Shown: positions 9,256-18,857 of the stretch, piece after piece | How the letters are laid out: each line of letters starts with the position of its first letter | How positions within the stretch are numbered: position 1 is the stretch's first letter | Notes under the pieces: model-generated | What the model was told of the DNA's origin: nothing | Seen by the model: only the letters and a program-made list of their open reading frames with translations | Databases searched by the model: none | Program-made: the position numbers and the translations under genes | Origin: a virus | DNA length: 20,141 bases | Virus record (IMG/VR): IMGVR_UViG_3300009151_000523 | Location: 1-20,141 of that record | Direction: 5' to 3' (one strand)

Positions 9256-10587
9256 TTGAATATCTTAAGTATTGATCCCTATGGGCTTTCGCTACACTGG
9301 TGCCTAGATTGCATCGCCGCAGGACACACAGTTAAACTAATCACAGTAGGACCTATCGCCGAACCCATTGGCCAAGGACTTGTGGACAAGTTAGACAATT
9401 GGCAACAAGCAAAATCATATGCACGACACTGTGATTTGATATTCGTAGCAGATAATGTAGATTTCATGGAAGAAGTTTTAGAACTTCGCAAAAAAGGGTT
9501 GCCAGTTTTTGGTCCAGATAAAAGATCAGCACGTCTAGAAGTTGATCGTATGTATGGACAAAATGCTATCAAAGATTGTGGCAACAAAGTAATACCATCA
9601 ACAGAATTTTCCAATTATGACCAAGCAATAGCTTTCGTCAAAGCAACCCCCAATAGATACTGCTGCAAACCCTGTGGGGCTGTGGAAGATAAGTCATTGA
9701 CTTACTTAGCAAAAGATCCAGCAGACATGATAGGATTTCTTACTCGCATGAAGAAAGTTGGTAAGAAAGCGGGTATCACAAAGTTCATTCTTCAAGAATT
9801 CAAGAAAGGTACTGAACTTGCTGTTATGGGTATGTTTGGTCCTAATGGATTCAACAGCGTATTCTGCGAGAACTTTGAACACAAGAAATTGATGAATGGC
9901 GATCTTGGTGTATCCACTGGAGAAATGGGTACGGCTCTCAGATATACAAAAGATTCTAAACTTGCTGATATCATGCTGAAACCATTAGAAAAATTACTGC
10001 ATGAATTGAAATATGTTGGTTTTGTTGATATTAGTGTTATCGTAGATGAAAACGATGGAACTCCTTGGCCAATGGAATTTACACAAAGGCCAGGATATCC
10101 TATACACAATATCCAGCAATCACTGATCGTTGGTGATCCTGCTCAATGGATGGTTGATCTAATCAATGGTAAAGACACCTTTGAAATCATTGGTGGTGAG
10201 ACTGCTCTTGGTGTTGTCATGGCGTGTTCAGACTTCCCATTTGCAAAGAAACCCATCGAAGAATATCTAGATTATCCAGTAATAACTGATGATGTGAAAG
10301 ATCTTTCTATGGTATCACCATGCGAAATTAAGTTATCTTCTACTATTAAGATGATAGATGACGAAGTTGTGGAGAACTATCCAGAATGGGGTACTGCTGG
10401 CACTTATATTTGTGTATGTATAGGCATTGGTGGCACAATTTCACAGGCAAAAGATGCTGCGTATAAAGTAGTAAAACAAGTGAAGTTGGGCAATGATCCT
10501 GCATATCGTACTGATATCGGTGACTCATGTGAAGATAGATTGAAGCAACTACACAAATTTGATTATTGTAACGATTGGAAATTTTAA
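9256..10587 (+). CDS. PurD-like ATP-grasp ligase
   Basis: A 443-residue ATP-grasp enzyme most like phosphoribosylamine-glycine ligase (PurD, step 2 of purine synthesis). Family-like features: FILQEFKKGTELAVMGMFG (about 176-194) as the nucleotide-binding strand pair, GVSTGEMGT where PurD has TGGMG, and FVDISVIVDENDG followed by PMEFTQRPGYP in the metal/ATP-binding end of the grasp. The N-terminal GxGGREHA loop that binds the amine substrate in true PurD is missing; here it reads IDPYGLSLHW. The acceptor may therefore differ, and related ATP-grasp ligases add amino acids to small molecules or peptides. TTG start with GGAGAG upstream. Late promoter in front, which is odd for purine synthesis. 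TAA overlaps the next ATG. Confidence 0.75.
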   Translation: MNILSIDPYGLSLHWCLDCIAAGHTVKLITVGPIAEPIGQGLVDKLDNWQQAKSYARHCDLIFVADNVDFMEEVLELRKKGLPVFGPDKRSARLEVDRMYGQNAIKDCGNKVIPSTEFSNYDQAIAFVKATPNRYCCKPCGAVEDKSLTYLAKDPADMIGFLTRMKKVGKKAGITKFILQEFKKGTELAVMGMFGPNGFNSVFCENFEHKKLMNGDLGVSTGEMGTALRYTKDSKLADIMLKPLEKLLHELKYVGFVDISVIVDENDGTPWPMEFTQRPGYPIHNIQQSLIVGDPAQWMVDLINGKDTFEIIGGETALGVVMACSDFPFAKKPIEEYLDYPVITDDVKDLSMVSPCEIKLSSTIKMIDDEVVENYPEWGTAGTYICVCIGIGGTISQAKDAAYKVVKQVKLGNDPAYRTDIGDSCEDRLKQLHKFDYCNDWKF

Positions 10588-13253: not shown

Positions 13254-15119
13254 ATGTTAACTTTTAAATCATTTCTACGAGAACAATATCTAATAGAAGC
13301 TACAGCTAAACACTTTAATCATATTGATCTGGATGCGTCCAATCCAGAACATAAAGATCTAATTGATGCGTATAATAGGGGTCATTCAGCTAATGACCAT
13401 AATGTACCCAGACATCCAGGCCAAATACGTTCTATTGATCAGCTAAAATCAGCGGTACACCCACATCTTCAAAAAATACAACAAAAACACAAAGAAGATA
13501 TTGATGATATAAAGGCTAGAACTAATGGTGAGGCTAATGTTGTCCACCATAACCCAGATACTGGCGCTACTGTCACACAAGTAACTAATCAGGCAGGTTC
13601 TTGTGCAGCCGGCGCATCTAGTTCATGGTGTACAGGTAGGCGTGGTGTTGATATGGTCCATCATTATGATCCAGAAGGACACAAATCTTTCGTATTCAAA
13701 TTCCCTAAAGAAAAAAAGAAGCATCTTAGAACCATAGGTGCCTATGGTGCATATAATGGTGATACTAGCGATACCGCTAATCATCAAGATGCTGAAAATC
13801 ATACAGTACACCCACAAGAATGGCATAGATTAGTAAAGGAACATGGTCTAGACAAAATAAAACATTTAAAAGGTTCTGTTAGGGATATACCTATTACTAG
13901 TGATGAAAAATCTAAATACGCGGAAGAGCTTACACATCACATAAAAATGAGCACTACTAAACCAGAAGATTTATTACATGCCAGCGCTAATAGATATTTA
14001 ACTAAAGCACATAAACAAGCATTGGCTACTAATAGTAAAACACATACCAATATATTGAATGCTCTGGCTAGTGATCCAGAGACACATAAAGCTATATTAA
14101 AACATCCTAATGCTGGGGATAATGCATTGGATGCTGTTGCTAGTAACACAAATGATCCAGAGATACATAAAGCTATATTAAAACATCCTAAAGCTGGGGA
14201 TGGTGCATTGGCTGATGTTGCTCGTAACACAAGGGATCTAGAGATACATAAAGCTATATTAAAACATCCTAAAGCTGGGGATAATGCATTGGCTACTGTT
14301 GCTTATAACACAACAGAAGAGATACATAAAGCTATATTAAAACATCCTAATGCTGGTGATCATGTATTATCTTCTGTTGCTCGTAACACAACAGACCCAG
14401 ATATACATAAAGCTATATTAAAACATCCTAATGCTGGTGATAATGCATTATCTTCTGTTGCTCGTAACACAACAGAAGATATACATAAAGCTATAGTAAA
14501 ACATCCTAATGCTGGGGATAATGCATTATCTTCTGTTGCTAGTCACACACAGGATCCAGATATACATAAAGCTATATTAAAACATCCTAATGCTGGTGAT
14601 GGTGCATTATCTTCTGTTGCTTATAACACAAGGGATCCAGAGATACATAAAGCTATATTAAAACATCCTAAAGCTGGGGATAATGCATTGGCTACTGTTG
14701 CTTATAACACAAGGGATCCAGAGATACATAAAGCTATATTAAAACATCCTAAGTCAGATAGTTATCCAATAGAGCATTCTATAAATAATATACATGATGC
14801 CGGTGTTCACCATTTAATGATTAATAAATATAAAAACATCGATAATGAAAAGGTTGATACATTAGCAGATAAATATAAGTTACCAAAGACAAGCGGACAC
14901 AATTCAAAATACGACCAAGCCTCAGATGATACTATAGATAAATTACAACATGGATTGTCTAAACTAGTAGGAAGATCAGATTCTGCTAAATCTCGCACAG
15001 AAAAATTAGGCAACGACGATCCAATAAAACCAATAACACCAATAAAAAATAGACAGCGTAGATACAATTTTCATGAACAAATCCTTGAAATTTTATCAAA
15101 ACCCATTTCACGACAATAG
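13254..15119 (+). CDS. Solenoid-repeat protein with capsid-targeting-like N-terminus, 621 aa
   Basis: The N-terminus MLTFKSFLREQYLIEA matches the leader of the two other candidate internal proteins and carries L-I-E-A, predicting prohead-protease cleavage after Glu15. Residues ~110-150 hold AGSCAAGASSSWCTG, recalling a phage-protein motif (small-residue run, then WCT) whose function I cannot name. Residues 274-500 are eight full 26-27-residue repeats plus part of a ninth, consensus DPEIHKAILKHPNAGDNALSSVAxNT, similar to variant-leucine-rich or HEAT-like alpha solenoids that bind proteins. A polar, lysine-rich C-terminus follows (ending LSKPISRQ). AGGCAC is a weak ribosome-binding site. Late tandem promoters precede it. 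Could be an injected effector or a minor head component. Confidence 0.75.
   Translation: MLTFKSFLREQYLIEATAKHFNHIDLDASNPEHKDLIDAYNRGHSANDHNVPRHPGQIRSIDQLKSAVHPHLQKIQQKHKEDIDDIKARTNGEANVVHHNPDTGATVTQVTNQAGSCAAGASSSWCTGRRGVDMVHHYDPEGHKSFVFKFPKEKKKHLRTIGAYGAYNGDTSDTANHQDAENHTVHPQEWHRLVKEHGLDKIKHLKGSVRDIPITSDEKSKYAEELTHHIKMSTTKPEDLLHASANRYLTKAHKQALATNSKTHTNILNALASDPETHKAILKHPNAGDNALDAVASNTNDPEIHKAILKHPKAGDGALADVARNTRDLEIHKAILKHPKAGDNALATVAYNTTEEIHKAILKHPNAGDHVLSSVARNTTDPDIHKAILKHPNAGDNALSSVARNTTEDIHKAIVKHPNAGDNALSSVASHTQDPDIHKAILKHPNAGDGALSSVAYNTRDPEIHKAILKHPKAGDNALATVAYNTRDPEIHKAILKHPKSDSYPIEHSINNIHDAGVHHLMINKYKNIDNEKVDTLADKYKLPKTSGHNSKYDQASDDTIDKLQHGLSKLVGRSDSAKSRTEKLGNDDPIKPITPIKNRQRRYNFHEQILEILSKPISRQ
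14073..14753 (+). repeat. Tandem 78-81-bp coding repeats
   Basis: Eight complete units and a shortened ninth, each 81 bp or 78 bp (two units lack one codon), are marked by the recurring ACATAAAGCTATATTAAAAC block. Units are nearly identical at the DNA level, including silent positions, so the array expanded recently or is kept uniform by recombination. Differences cluster at a few codons (KAGD/NAGD, ATVAY/SSVAR/ADVAR). Confidence 0.9.
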
Positions 15120-15127
15120 GATATGAC

Positions 15128-15550
15128 ATGAATAGATTATTAGTACTATTTGCATTGATTTTCTCTACACAAGCATTTGCTGGTATTCCACCAGAAGCTA
15201 TTAGAACAACTGATGTAAAGGATATCTGCACAACATTAACATCAACCATTAGAAATGTGCCGGATTCGGTCAAGAAGAAAGTTTTCATACGAGACAATGG
15301 AAATGCATCACATAAGTATGAGGTGGACCATAGAATAGCATTGGGTTCTGGTGGTGCAAATGATATCAGCAACCTTAAATTACAAGATTACAATGGTTCT
15401 TGCAACGCACATGATAAAGATAAGTTAGAAGTGAGATTACAGTCATTGATTTGTAAGAACAAAATAACTGTATCCGAAGCTCAGAATTATTTGTATAATA
15501 GTTGGGAAGCTGGATATACTAAATATATTAATGCGAAAGGCTGCAAATAA
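15128..15550 (+). CDS. Secreted HNH endonuclease
   Basis: A 140-residue protein with a clear signal peptide (MNRLLVLFALIFSTQAFA, cleavage after Ala18) and an HNH-type core: YEVDHRIALGSGGANDISNL (Asp67, His68, Asn82) followed by CNAHDKDKLE. HNH proteins cut DNA with one metal ion. Export to the periplasm, with four cysteines (34, 92, 109, 139) that could form disulfides there, suggests it degrades incoming or released DNA in the periplasm, for example of a competing phage, rather than acting in packaging or homing. RBS AGGA lies nine bases upstream of the ATG. Last gene before the next promoter. Confidence 0.88.
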   Translation: MNRLLVLFALIFSTQAFAGIPPEAIRTTDVKDICTTLTSTIRNVPDSVKKKVFIRDNGNASHKYEVDHRIALGSGGANDISNLKLQDYNGSCNAHDKDKLEVRLQSLICKNKITVSEAQNYLYNSWEAGYTKYINAKGCK

Positions 15551-15551
15551 T

Positions 15552-15579
15552 TTGACATTGGGTGTATTTGTGGTATAAT
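15552..15579 (+). promoter_or_regulatory. Sigma70-like promoter for the hydrolase-33-59-32 operon
   Basis: TTGACA at 15552-15557 and TATAAT at 15574-15579, again perfect hexamers with a 16-bp spacer, begin directly after the HNH stop. The predicted start is near 15586, leaving a ~140-nt leader before the hydrolase ATG. The core is embedded in an inverted repeat. Confidence 0.88.
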
Positions 15580-15610: not shown

Positions 15611-15826
15611 AAGATAACCGATACACCAATCCCGTTTAAAAGTTCAAAATCACAAAGTCTATTCGAAGAACTAAGGGAAACTTTTATGTTATTTCACATA
15701 AAGGCAACTGAAAAGCTAGGAGAAAACTATGCGAGCAAAACAATTTATGCTCTTAATAGTCATGTGCTTGTCAATGGTGGCAAATGCAGAAACAAACAAG
15801 ATCATTATATCACCAAAACACTCTGA
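15611..15826 (+). pseudogene. Protein-like frame without a normal start codon
   Basis: One frame stays open from 15590 to the TGA at 15824-15826 and reads like a real small phage protein from about 15611 (KITDTPIPFKSSKSQSLFEE..., then FHIKATEKLGENYASK). AGAGG at 15597-15601 would suit a start at 15611, but that codon is AAG; the next is ATA, and the first in-frame ATG is only at 15686. The nearby ATG 15603 is in another frame and stops after four codons; one extra A at 15611 would join it to this frame. So this is a start-codon or frameshift mutant, a non-AUG gene, or chance. Its last ~98 bases overlap the hydrolase gene in another frame. Confidence 0.35.
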
Positions 15827-16220
15827 TATAATAGTACACAAAACAGTAATAAAACCCCGTCCAGTGATGGTCGTGGATCGAAAACAGTTGTCCTGTGTCG
15901 CAGAAACCATTTACTCTGAAAGTAGGGGCGAATCGTTGGTGGGTCAATATGCCGTTGGTCATACAATAATGAACAGATCTAGAAATATATTACACGAACC
16001 CCCATGTGCGATAGTTAAGCAGCAATACACCCAGAAACACATACCCAAAGAAGATGTCGATGAATTTTACTCAATTGCTAAAAATGTTATGATAGGTAAT
16101 TATAGAAATGTTGCGGGGAATTCTGACTCCTTTGATTCATTCAAGAATATCAAACACCCAAAGGGTAGTATACACATAGGTAATCATTGGTTCTACCAAG
16201 CATTGAAAAAGGTTGCTTAA
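15729..16220 (+). CDS. Secreted cell-wall hydrolase, SleB/Hydrolase_2 type
   Basis: A 163-residue protein with a signal peptide or signal-arrest helix (FMLLIVMCLSMVANA, residues 6-20) followed by a SleB-type domain: LSCVAETIYSESRGESLVGQYAVGHTIMNR (54-82) with the probable catalytic Glu59/Glu64 pair, and a C-terminal IGNHWFY. Such enzymes cut peptidoglycan glycan strands. AGGAGA precedes the ATG. It could be the phage endolysin, working with the holin at 263-532. Yet it lies first in the operon with 33, 59 and 32 behind a host-type promoter, which suggests early expression and possibly a wall-modifying rather than final lysis role. Confidence 0.85.
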   Translation: MRAKQFMLLIVMCLSMVANAETNKIIISPKHSDIIVHKTVIKPRPVMVVDRKQLSCVAETIYSESRGESLVGQYAVGHTIMNRSRNILHEPPCAIVKQQYTQKHIPKEDVDEFYSIAKNVMIGNYRNVAGNSDSFDSFKNIKHPKGSIHIGNHWFYQALKKVA

Positions 16221-16399
16221 TGATGTTTTCTGTGGTAAAATGGATCAATGGTGGGATAAAGGTGTTGCAGGAAGACCGATTAGACTTTCCTAATATGCCG
16301 ATGGGGTTACCCCCTATCTCTCATAATGTTTTATTCATCAATAAAGAAAATATAGGTGAATTTTTGAATACTATACAGGAATATAAAGATGCCCAATGA
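16220..16399 (+). CDS. Hypothetical protein, 59 aa
   Basis: ATG 16220 overlaps the hydrolase stop (TAATG), with a second ATG directly after; the frame opens upstream but that part lies inside the hydrolase gene. The product begins MMFSVVKWIN and contains a proline-rich middle (DFPNMPMGLPPI). It looks soluble. It overlaps the 33-like gene by 11 bases, so it is translationally coupled to both neighbours. No family recognised. Confidence 0.6.
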   Translation: MMFSVVKWINGGIKVLQEDRLDFPNMPMGLPPISHNVLFINKENIGEFLNTIQEYKDAQ

Positions 16400-16610
16400 A
16401 GATGAAATATTATCGTTCTCTCGCCACATGGAACAGATAGCTAAGGATGAACATGTCGATATTCTAGACGCCATTACACATTACTGCGAAGAATCACTAC
16501 TGGAATATGATACAGCCGCAGCTTTGGTGTCTAGCTCATTAAAAGATAAGATAAGAGAACAAGCAATTGCGATGAACCTTATTAGGAAAGAATCAAGTCT
16601 ACCTATATGA
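16389..16610 (+). CDS. 33: Late-transcription co-activator, gp33-like
   Basis: A 73-residue protein with the pattern of the short gp33 proteins of marine T4-like phages: DILDAITHYCEESLLEYDTAAALVSSSLKDKI (24-55), then a conserved MNLI...SLPI end. In T4, gp33 binds the beta flap of host RNA polymerase and links the sliding clamp gp45 to late promoters recognised by gp55. This agrees with the TATAAATA promoters in the window. Position immediately before 59, with ATGA overlap, reproduces the T4 33-59 order. AGGA lies eight bases before the ATG. Identification is by remembered pattern and synteny. Confidence 0.8.
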   Translation: MPNEDEILSFSRHMEQIAKDEHVDILDAITHYCEESLLEYDTAAALVSSSLKDKIREQAIAMNLIRKESSLPI

Positions 16611-17200
16611 ACTCTGGGCTTGAAACATATAAAATGTATATCTCTATAAAGAGGTACTTTTTGGATAACTATGACATAGTTAAATATAAACACAAAATTA
16701 AGGTTACCGAAGATTATTTTCTATCTAGGAAGGATAGATATTCATTCGTCAAGTTAGCATCTAAATTTAGTATTGATGAAACACGGGATTATATCTTCGC
16801 CAATTTCGTTAATGGTGATGTACATTGGGTAGGCGAATTGGTAGGTGCCGAAGGCGAGGATGTCTATAGAAAATGGCTAAAAACTAAACAGAGCTTGACA
16901 TACATATTCGAGAATGATATAATACACCTGATGGATTCTGTCGAGTCACCAAATGAATTGCTGATAGTGCCGGAAGGTAGATTTCCTGTGTTGTTAACAG
17001 AAACAATGGGTGGTAGAATTTCATTGGAAACCTTGATTATATTGAACTCACTATTAAACTTCTTTCCTATGTGGGAGGATAATATAGAGGATGATATAGT
17101 ATGGCCAAGATATAGCTTGAAGTGCAAAAAATATAAACCGTTTTTGAAATTTGATGCTGTTAAATTTAAACAAATTCTACTAAAGCATGTGAGGATATGA
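16607..17200 (+). CDS. 59: Replicative helicase loader, gp59-like
   Basis: In T4, gp59 loads the gp41 helicase onto gp32-coated forked DNA. The 197-residue product (T4: 217) shows the gp59 pattern: YKMYISIKRYFLDNYDIVKYKHKIKVTEDYFLSRKDRYSFVKLASKF near the N-terminus, matching the T4 YKLYLMIKQH...YDVIKYN...RRDKYFFQKLSEK block, followed by a region with ISLETLIILNSLLNF resembling T4 ISFETFILLDSFLN, and a C-terminal WPRYSLKCKKYKPFL. Overlaps the 33 stop by four bases (ATGA) and the next gene's start likewise. Basic and helical, as expected for gp59. Confidence 0.9.
   Translation: MNSGLETYKMYISIKRYFLDNYDIVKYKHKIKVTEDYFLSRKDRYSFVKLASKFSIDETRDYIFANFVNGDVHWVGELVGAEGEDVYRKWLKTKQSLTYIFENDIIHLMDSVESPNELLIVPEGRFPVLLTETMGGRISLETLIILNSLLNFFPMWEDNIEDDIVWPRYSLKCKKYKPFLKFDAVKFKQILLKHVRI
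16895..16923 (+). promoter_or_regulatory. Consensus sigma70 promoter inside gene 59
   Basis: TTGACA (16895-16900) and TATAAT (16918-16923), both perfect, with a 17-bp spacer, lie in the coding region of 59. It would add transcription of the HAD enzyme, lipoprotein and 32. In T4, gene 32 is also partly transcribed from promoters within 59, so this is plausible; a coding coincidence is the alternative. Confidence 0.6.
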
Positions 17201-17691
17201 TGAATAAGCCATTGATTAATAAGACATTTTTAGATTTAGACGGTGTGGTGGCAGATTTTTCTAAGAGATACGAAGAGTTATACCATATGGAACCTCGTGA
17301 AGCGGAGAAGAATAAAAAGTTCGACTGCCAGTTTAATGAATTCATTGATACCCAGCAATTCGCCACACTTGATCTAATGCCGGGGGCCATGGTATTGGTA
17401 GACTATCTGAAAACACTATCAATACCAACAGAGATATTATCATCGACTGGCAGACAAGAATCGTTTGATGCTGTGTCGAAACAGAAAAAGATTTGGCTAG
17501 ATACTCATAATATAACATTTAAGCAAAACTTTGTGCCGGGAAAAAAACACAAGTACAAGTATGCGACACCAGAATCCATTATCATAGATGACACTTGGTC
17601 TGTCATCGAAGATTGGAGAAACGCGGGAGGGATTGGTATATGGCACACGTCAGTACCAGAAACACTTGCAATTTTAAAACTATACGTATAG
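17197..17691 (+). CDS. HAD-family 5'(3')-deoxyribonucleotidase-like phosphatase
   Basis: A 164-residue HAD hydrolase resembling the 5'-nucleotidase C type (NT5C). Motif I is FLDLDGVVADF with nucleophile Asp13 and Asp15; motif II ILSSTG (Ser/Thr 82-84); motif III probably Lys97/98 in KQKKIW; motif IV IIIDDT (Asp131, Asp132). It probably removes phosphate from deoxynucleoside monophosphates, adjusting the dNTP pool alongside ThyA and DHFR. The ATG overlaps the 59 stop. The region between motifs I and II (about 23-70) is a short cap-like insert. Confidence 0.82.
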   Translation: MMNKPLINKTFLDLDGVVADFSKRYEELYHMEPREAEKNKKFDCQFNEFIDTQQFATLDLMPGAMVLVDYLKTLSIPTEILSSTGRQESFDAVSKQKKIWLDTHNITFKQNFVPGKKHKYKYATPESIIIDDTWSVIEDWRNAGGIGIWHTSVPETLAILKLYV

Positions 17692-17699
17692 GAATAAAT

Positions 17700-17966
17700 A
17701 TGAAGAAAATTATGTTAGTAATCGCGTTAGCAACATTAGCTGGCTGTGCAAGTAATGGCGCAGTGGAAAATCTACAGTCACAAATTGATGTATTAAAAAC
17801 ATCTACAGCAGAAGTATCTGTATTAGCAAAGGGTGCACAACTTGCAGCGGCACAAGCTTCTACATTAGCTGGCAATGCAGAAGCAGCAGCAAATAGAGCA
17901 GCACAATATGCTCAAGATGCTAATACCAAGTTAGACAACCTGTTCAAGAAATCAATGAGTAAATAA
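17700..17966 (+). CDS. Murein-lipoprotein-like (OprI/Lpp) lipoprotein, 88 aa
   Basis: The frame opens at 17595, but ATG 17700 is preferred: AGGAA sits upstream and it gives a lipoprotein signal MKKIMLVIALATLAGC with lipobox L-A-G-C (Cys16). The mature part is an alanine-rich heptad coiled coil (NLQSQIDVLKT ... AAAQASTLAGNAEAAANRAAQYAQ) ending KKSMSK, the layout of Pseudomonas OprI and E. coli Lpp, whose C-terminal lysine is linked to peptidoglycan. It should sit in the outer membrane. Its place between the nucleotidase and gene 32, under early-type promoters, is unusual. Roles could be superinfection exclusion, envelope strengthening or spanin-like function; none is shown. Confidence 0.85.
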   Translation: MKKIMLVIALATLAGCASNGAVENLQSQIDVLKTSTAEVSVLAKGAQLAAAQASTLAGNAEAAANRAAQYAQDANTKLDNLFKKSMSK

Positions 17967-18011: not shown

Positions 18012-18857
18012 ATGAGTTTTGCAAATCTGAAACGTAACAACGGTAATCTTGAAAAACTGACTAAAGCACTCGAGAAAATGAGTGATGCTGGTGGCAAAGA
18101 TACAGAAGAGAATTACTGGAAACCCGAAATAGACAAATCCGGAAACGGTATGGCCACATTTAGATTCTTACCAACAGTTGATGAGGATGGTGAAAACGAT
18201 CCTTGGGTTAAAATGTATTCACACGGATTCCAAGGCCCCGGTGGATGGTTGATAGATAACTGCCTAACTACGAAAGGAGAAAAGTGCCCAGTTTGTGAAA
18301 GCAATACTTTGCTATGGAATTCTGGAGTAGCGGCCGATAAGAAGATAGCAAGTTTACGTAAGAGACGATTATCCCATGTGTCTAACATTTACATGATAGA
18401 TGACATTAAACATCCAGAAAACAATGGCAAAGTATTCTTATTTCGGTATGGTATTAAAATCTTCGAGAAAATTAAAGGGGCAGCAAAACCTGAATTTTCA
18501 GATGAGAAATCATTCAGCCCATTCGATGTTGACACAGGCGCCAACTTTAAACTTAAGGTTCGTAAGGTTGAAGGGTTCCAAAATTACGACAAATCTGAAT
18601 TTGAATCTGTAGGTCCTTTGTTTGATGATATGTCCAAAATGGCTAATTTATCTGGATATTCTCTGCAAGCAATCCTCGACGATAAAGTGTTCAAAACATT
18701 TGATGAAATTCAATCACGTCTCAACAAGGTACTTGGGATTGGTGGTACAGTAAGAACCACCATGGAACAAGCCAAAATGGCACCAAAAACTGTTGTCGAT
18801 GAAGAAACTAACGAAGATTATGATATGTCATACTTCGAATCACTCGTTGACGATTAA
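18012..18857 (+). CDS. 32: Single-stranded DNA-binding protein, gp32-like
   Basis: The replication-fork ssDNA-binding protein. The 281-residue product has the gp32 layout: a basic N-terminal arm (MSFANLKRNNGNLEKL), the core with zinc ligands His71, Cys84, Cys92 and Cys95 (T4: His64, Cys77, Cys87, Cys90), and an acidic tail (DEETNEDYDMSYFESLVDD) that in T4 contacts other replication proteins. AAGGAA precedes the ATG. The 45-base gap before it is A-rich and without an obvious hairpin, so a T4-style autoregulatory pseudoknot is not evident. The TAA overlaps the stop of the convergent gene. Confidence 0.94.
   Translation: MSFANLKRNNGNLEKLTKALEKMSDAGGKDTEENYWKPEIDKSGNGMATFRFLPTVDEDGENDPWVKMYSHGFQGPGGWLIDNCLTTKGEKCPVCESNTLLWNSGVAADKKIASLRKRRLSHVSNIYMIDDIKHPENNGKVFLFRYGIKIFEKIKGAAKPEFSDEKSFSPFDVDTGANFKLKVRKVEGFQNYDKSEFESVGPLFDDMSKMANLSGYSLQAILDDKVFKTFDEIQSRLNKVLGIGGTVRTTMEQAKMAPKTVVDEETNEDYDMSYFESLVDD

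Follow-up and report, generated by a model that had tools for sequence, protein, structure and literature searches.

We found that a T4-like freshwater phage, represented here by a virus record of 20,141 bases (the window), carries within its replication block a gene for a murein lipoprotein, and sequence comparisons support an origin of this gene in the Methylococcales. Judging from this one gene family, the phage probably infects these methane-eating bacteria. We put at about one half the probability that the lipoprotein, made early, keeps or retunes the tethering of the outer membrane to the peptidoglycan during infection. Family membership, host lineage, the match in length to host proteins, promoters, conserved place and selection on a related class of phage proteins are all directly supported; export, lipidation, linkage to the wall and the purpose of the protein are inferred.

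The gene, which we call lpp, occupies positions 17700–17966 of the plus strand, begins with ATG, ends with TAA and encodes 88 amino acids; its AGGA ribosome-binding site (17690–17693, plus strand) overlaps the stop codon of the preceding gene. Two curated profiles matched the protein above their cut-offs: NCBIfam NF040598 (Lpp/OprI family alanine-zipper lipoprotein; 76.6 bits, E 1.6e-21, residues 4–88, cut-off 43 bits) and Pfam PF11839 (61.3 bits, E 1.1e-16, cut-off 23.1 bits). By these profiles the protein genuinely belongs to the Lpp/OprI family, as a preliminary description had proposed from its lipobox, heptad coiled coil and terminal lysine, all of which are present. The PHROG library has no phage family corresponding to it. 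Another contig (L001) matches the window at 99.6% identity over 4966 bases and has an identical lpp.

The protein starts with a type II signal peptide of 15 residues, MKKIMLVIALATLAG (17700–17744), which aligns with those of hosts and other phages and leads into the lipobox L-A-G-C. Cys16 (codon 17745–17747) is the predicted lipidated residue and would be residue 1 of a mature protein of 73 residues. The residue at position +2 is alanine and not aspartate, which predicts sorting to the outer membrane. Mature residues 7–66 (17763–17942) form an alanine zipper of nine consecutive heptads, whose a and d positions read VLILTVAAAAAAAAAALL. Alanine or an aliphatic residue fills 17 of these 18 positions without a break in the heptads, which none of 20,000 residue shuffles of the stretch equalled, and AlphaFold2, run on the monomer only, gave one helix over residues 19–87. 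The last residue, Lys88 (codon 17961–17963), is the expected site of linkage to peptidoglycan and is invariant in the aligned phage and host rows.

Profile matches gave the gene order gp33–gp59–HAD–lpp–gp32, all on the plus strand, confirming the position between 59 and 32 given in the preliminary description. Gene 33 encodes the late-transcription coactivator (16389–16610; PF16805, PHROG 254), gene 59 the helicase loader (16607–17200; PF08993/PF08994, PHROG 269) and gene 32 the single-strand DNA-binding protein (18012–18857; PF08804, PHROG 224). The gene before lpp, which lpp follows after 8 bases, encodes a HAD-type 5'(3')-deoxyribonucleotidase (17197–17691; PF06941, PHROG 2643). A related lipoprotein lies at the 59–32 site in three lineages: the window and L001; L035 and L036, with gp32 identities of 65–66% and a 76-residue lipoprotein, MKKVMLVAMLATLVGCASTGD...KLDSLFKKSMTK; and L045, with a 72-residue one. 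In L035, L036 and L045 no HAD gene was seen separating 59 from lpp.

Upstream of gp33, each of the three lineages has genes for a nuclease and for a cell-wall hydrolase of the Hydrolase_2 type, and both products carry apparent signal peptides. The hydrolase of the window (15729–16220, plus strand; Hydrolase_2/SleB type) was recognized by PHROG 938 (4.5e-9); its Pfam score fell below the cut-off, and PF07486 scored above it in L035 and L045. Its position is kept in all three lineages. It shows no particular affinity to Methylococcales, with weak matches in 3 of 101 genomes. The nuclease of the window is HNH-like (15128–15550, plus strand; weak HNH matches), and the same slot holds an unrelated SNase (PF00565) in L035 (1874–2287) and L045 (1766–2179). 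This shared layout of exported enzymes, together with the promoters described below, suggests an early envelope module within the replication block. Further upstream, the product of positions 13254–15119 contains some ten DPEIHKAILKHPKAGDNALATVA-type repeats. Across 4966 bases the window and L001 show 19 differences, every one of them within 14083–14331 inside this repeat stretch, which is therefore taken to encode a fast-changing repeat protein. The window also encodes a phosphoribosylglycinamide synthetase-like ATP-grasp protein (9256–10587; PF01071).

The plus strand of the window contains five sigma-70 promoters that match the consensus at 12 of 12 positions and have an extended -10 element, against 0.03 expected in the whole window. 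One of them (16895–16923) lies inside gene 59 and reads into HAD, lpp and 32. Another (15552–15579) precedes the hydrolase gene and has equivalents in L035, L036 and L045, those of L035 and L045 also matching at 12 of 12 positions. In L035 and L045, which are without the HAD gene, an 11/12 sigma-70 promoter directly precedes lpp. No consensus late TATAAATA was found between 14787 and lpp of the window. Near-perfect sigma-70 promoters thus stand ahead of lpp and of the upstream hydrolase gene in all three lineages, making early expression probable. The host-type promoters and early timing of the preliminary description are in line with these results; we conclude that lpp of the window is probably made early, a timing read from promoters only.

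We looked for bacterial relatives by scanning one genome for each of 84,980 species with short exact peptide patterns. All 25 relatives belonged to the Methylococcales (gammaproteobacterial methanotrophs) and were 55–63% identical to the phage protein. Since a pattern scan favours close relatives, we checked the result by searching entire genomes; matches with E≤1e-12 occurred in about 133 of the 201 Methylococcales genomes (156 at E≤1e-6). In a sample of 274 genomes from the class, three matched at E≤1e-12; all three were also in the Methylococcales order sample, and no match lay outside it. The host proteins found did not exceed about 65% identity, indicating either that the capture is old or that the gene has evolved fast in the phage. 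A host source, as raised in the preliminary description, fits the nearest relatives, though at 55–65% identity.

Host mature lengths are 73 or 66 residues, one heptad apart, and the phage protein has 73. The C-terminal stretch AANRAAQYAQDxNxKLDNLFKKSMxK is almost unchanged, and the zipper register is intact at 55–65% identity. Identity to hosts did not differ significantly between zipper core and surface (Fisher p 0.16–0.58), and we therefore claim no stronger conservation of the core. In a tree the phage protein fell among Methylococcales proteins, with a placement short of firm support, and lipoproteins of enterobacterial phages grouped with E. coli Lpp (99/93). When distant rows were left out, ten phage proteins of Methylococcales type formed one side of a branch with support of only 86/59. 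In two host loci (L009 and L004) lpp directly follows a gene for a YkuD L,D-transpeptidase, and L049 and L050 are arranged alike, as would suit a lipoprotein joined to peptidoglycan. In two others (L052 and L059, from genomes G190 and G054) host lpp occurs in tandem pairs with a mature length of 66.

Beyond the 59–32 site, related genes were found at other genome places in L037–L044 and L046. The phage lipoproteins share their ends, a lipobox with GCAS(N/T)GD and the C-terminal KLD(N/S)(L/M)FKKSMTK, and vary in the middle. There the window protein has the alanine zipper, one class has CTAHC or CTEHC (mature length 61) and another has H/D-rich repeats (57, 67). The CTAHC or CTEHC motif, conserved mid-protein in L037–L044, is possibly a disulfide or metal site. 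Pairwise dN/dS within this class was 0.10–0.35, indicating purifying selection on the gene. A distant phage protein (L002) has a mature length of 66, and its gene lies among tRNA genes. In L040 (1747–1977) and L042 (4684–4914), which are 99.6% alike and come from one metagenome, the lipobox glycine codon is an in-frame TGA and the remaining frame is intact, as in a dying gene or one with a recoded stop. A further Lpp-like gene with an internal frame change was seen in L030 (3665–3918), a contig from the metagenome of L001. Two other candidates, L031 and L032, were rejected as readings antisense to real genes. The distant Kyanoviridae phages HTVC008M and Melnitz, with 66–67% DNA identity in the part of gp32 that matched, have other genes at the site; in both, curli genes (csgF, csgG, curlin) are annotated a few genes downstream of 32 (L074 5154–6487, L075 4803–6390). 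A curlin-like ORF was also noted in L046 (97–453).

In E. coli, Lpp is the most abundant protein and the sole covalent link between outer membrane and wall (PMC7156740); its C-terminal lysine is joined to peptidoglycan by L,D-transpeptidases, and its length sets the inner-to-outer membrane distance, that is, the size of the periplasm (PMC5736177, PMC7156740). The phage protein keeps the features needed for a tether of this type, and we therefore favour this function for it. Under this proposal, host sigma-70 polymerase would transcribe phage lpp, probably early, and the product would be exported, lipidated at Cys16 and sorted to the outer membrane, where it would assemble into an alanine-zipper coiled coil that may include host Lpp. 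A host L,D-transpeptidase would probably join its C-terminal lysine to the peptidoglycan. Tethering may in this way be kept, or in sister phages retuned, as host gene expression declines and the exported hydrolase and nuclease of the phage enter the periplasm. A version of lpp at the same position in related phages suggests management of the envelope during infection. The sister proteins are shorter and remodelled (mature lengths 61 and 57) and match neither host length, which counts against a pure like-for-like supplement in all members.

The main rival to a tether is superinfection exclusion, in which the early lipoprotein would alter the outer membrane or periplasm and block adsorption or injection by a second phage, an effect in which the exported nuclease may take part. 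Superinfection is excluded by small outer-membrane lipoproteins of other phages, T5 Llp among them; the promoters are strong and of early type; a nuclease bearing a signal peptide occupies a constant position although its family differs between lineages; and an arms race would be expected to remodel the middle fast, as seen. However, known exclusion lipoproteins bind a receptor, for which a peptidoglycan-linking end and an alanine zipper of host length are needless, and the profile of the exclusion protein Cor reached only E 0.11, over residues 1–19; we consider exclusion unlikely. Interference is another possibility, chiefly for the shorter sister proteins: phage Lpp would act as a competitor or spacer, displacing host Lpp or occupying the L,D-transpeptidase, so that weaker tethering eases release. 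Kept ends with a middle that is variable and, in most phages, shorter (61, 57) could give mixed or shorter tethers. The window protein, however, equals host Lpp in length, resembles it in core and should act as a normal tether, and its probable early timing is ill-suited to release; we regard interference with host Lpp as improbable.

Conserved place, promoter and reading frame refute in the main the view that lpp is a recent chance passenger, a gene of no use to the phage. In its favour, the window lpp itself is known from two near-identical contigs only, and HTVC008M and Melnitz do without a relative at the site. A passenger would nevertheless hardly account for related lipoproteins at one site in three lineages, two of them with a promoter of their own, for dN/dS of 0.10–0.35 in the sister class, or for the intact zipper register at 55–65% identity to hosts, and we regard it as very improbable. 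Most improbable of all is a lysis-stage outer spanin (o-spanin or u-spanin). The protein is a small coiled-coil lipoprotein and gave weak matches to Rz-like spanin profiles (E 0.066–0.2), but these cover the signal peptide and first mature part (the best, E 0.066, residues 1–49; the others within 1–32), whereas the Lpp family match is full-length. Neither neighbour (HAD, gp32) is an inner-membrane partner, no C-terminal transmembrane segment is apparent, the promoter is probably early and the consensus late element is absent from 14787 to the gene. A best match to known o-spanins, which the preliminary description had named as evidence against its proposal, thus did not occur: the spanin profiles stayed at E≥0.066 and in the N-terminal part.

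In a wider reading, to which we give a lower probability, phages of methanotrophs may maintain a lasting, fast-remodelled Lpp family that forms, with an exported nuclease and an exported cell-wall hydrolase, an early envelope module in the replication block, in which kept ends and a changed middle would set a phage-specific spacing or chemistry between outer membrane and wall (for example, in the CTAHC class), shutting out rivals or guarding the infected cell. A virulent phage with its own Lpp, and a family with kept ends and remodelled middles, would amount to a natural set of tether variants, with which it could be tested whether phages govern the mechanics of the envelope or the width of the periplasm in infected cells. 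In addition, phage lpp can serve as a marker pointing to Methylococcales as hosts of a group of uncultured T4-like phages, which probably infect methanotrophs.

We compared the phage protein with known systems. Its closest counterpart is the Methylococcales Lpp (NF040598), for example that of Methylobacter psychrophilus (L009), with which it shares the lipobox, mature length of 73, nine-heptad alanine zipper and C-terminal KLDNLFKKSM-K at 61–62% identity; it differs in a signal peptide four residues shorter, a diverged middle and the place of its gene between phage genes 59 and 32. The Braun lipoprotein of E. coli has a similar layout and presumed mode of work, but its mature form has 58 residues, and its structure (1jcc) was matched by the phage sequence only at E=3.5. 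T5 Llp and Cor, which act in superinfection exclusion, are likewise small phage lipoproteins, probably made early; the Cor profile match is confined to the signal peptide region, and we know of no peptidoglycan-linking tail in such proteins. When the window Lpp, a Methylococcales Lpp and OprI were searched by tblastn against 50,697 phage records, no full-length homologue was found; only E. coli Lpp as query recovered genes of the PVP-SE1 type and that of FBB1. The 'major outer membrane lipoprotein' of Salmonella phage PVP-SE1 (gp89) and Erwinia phage FBB1 is also phage-borne, near the host type and diverged in the middle with its C-terminal end kept. These proteins differ in belonging to the enterobacterial lineage, in the replacement of the alanine core by leucine and valine and in having their genes among tRNA genes; they are a separate capture. 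Their mature lengths of 60 and 59 are close to the 58 of E. coli Lpp. We found no functional study of a phage-borne Lpp in the open-access literature. Phage-borne Lpp homologues were already annotated, in PVP-SE1 (gp89) and its relatives and in FBB1, and what is new in the methanotroph-type phages is the conserved site, the promoters and the remodelled middle.
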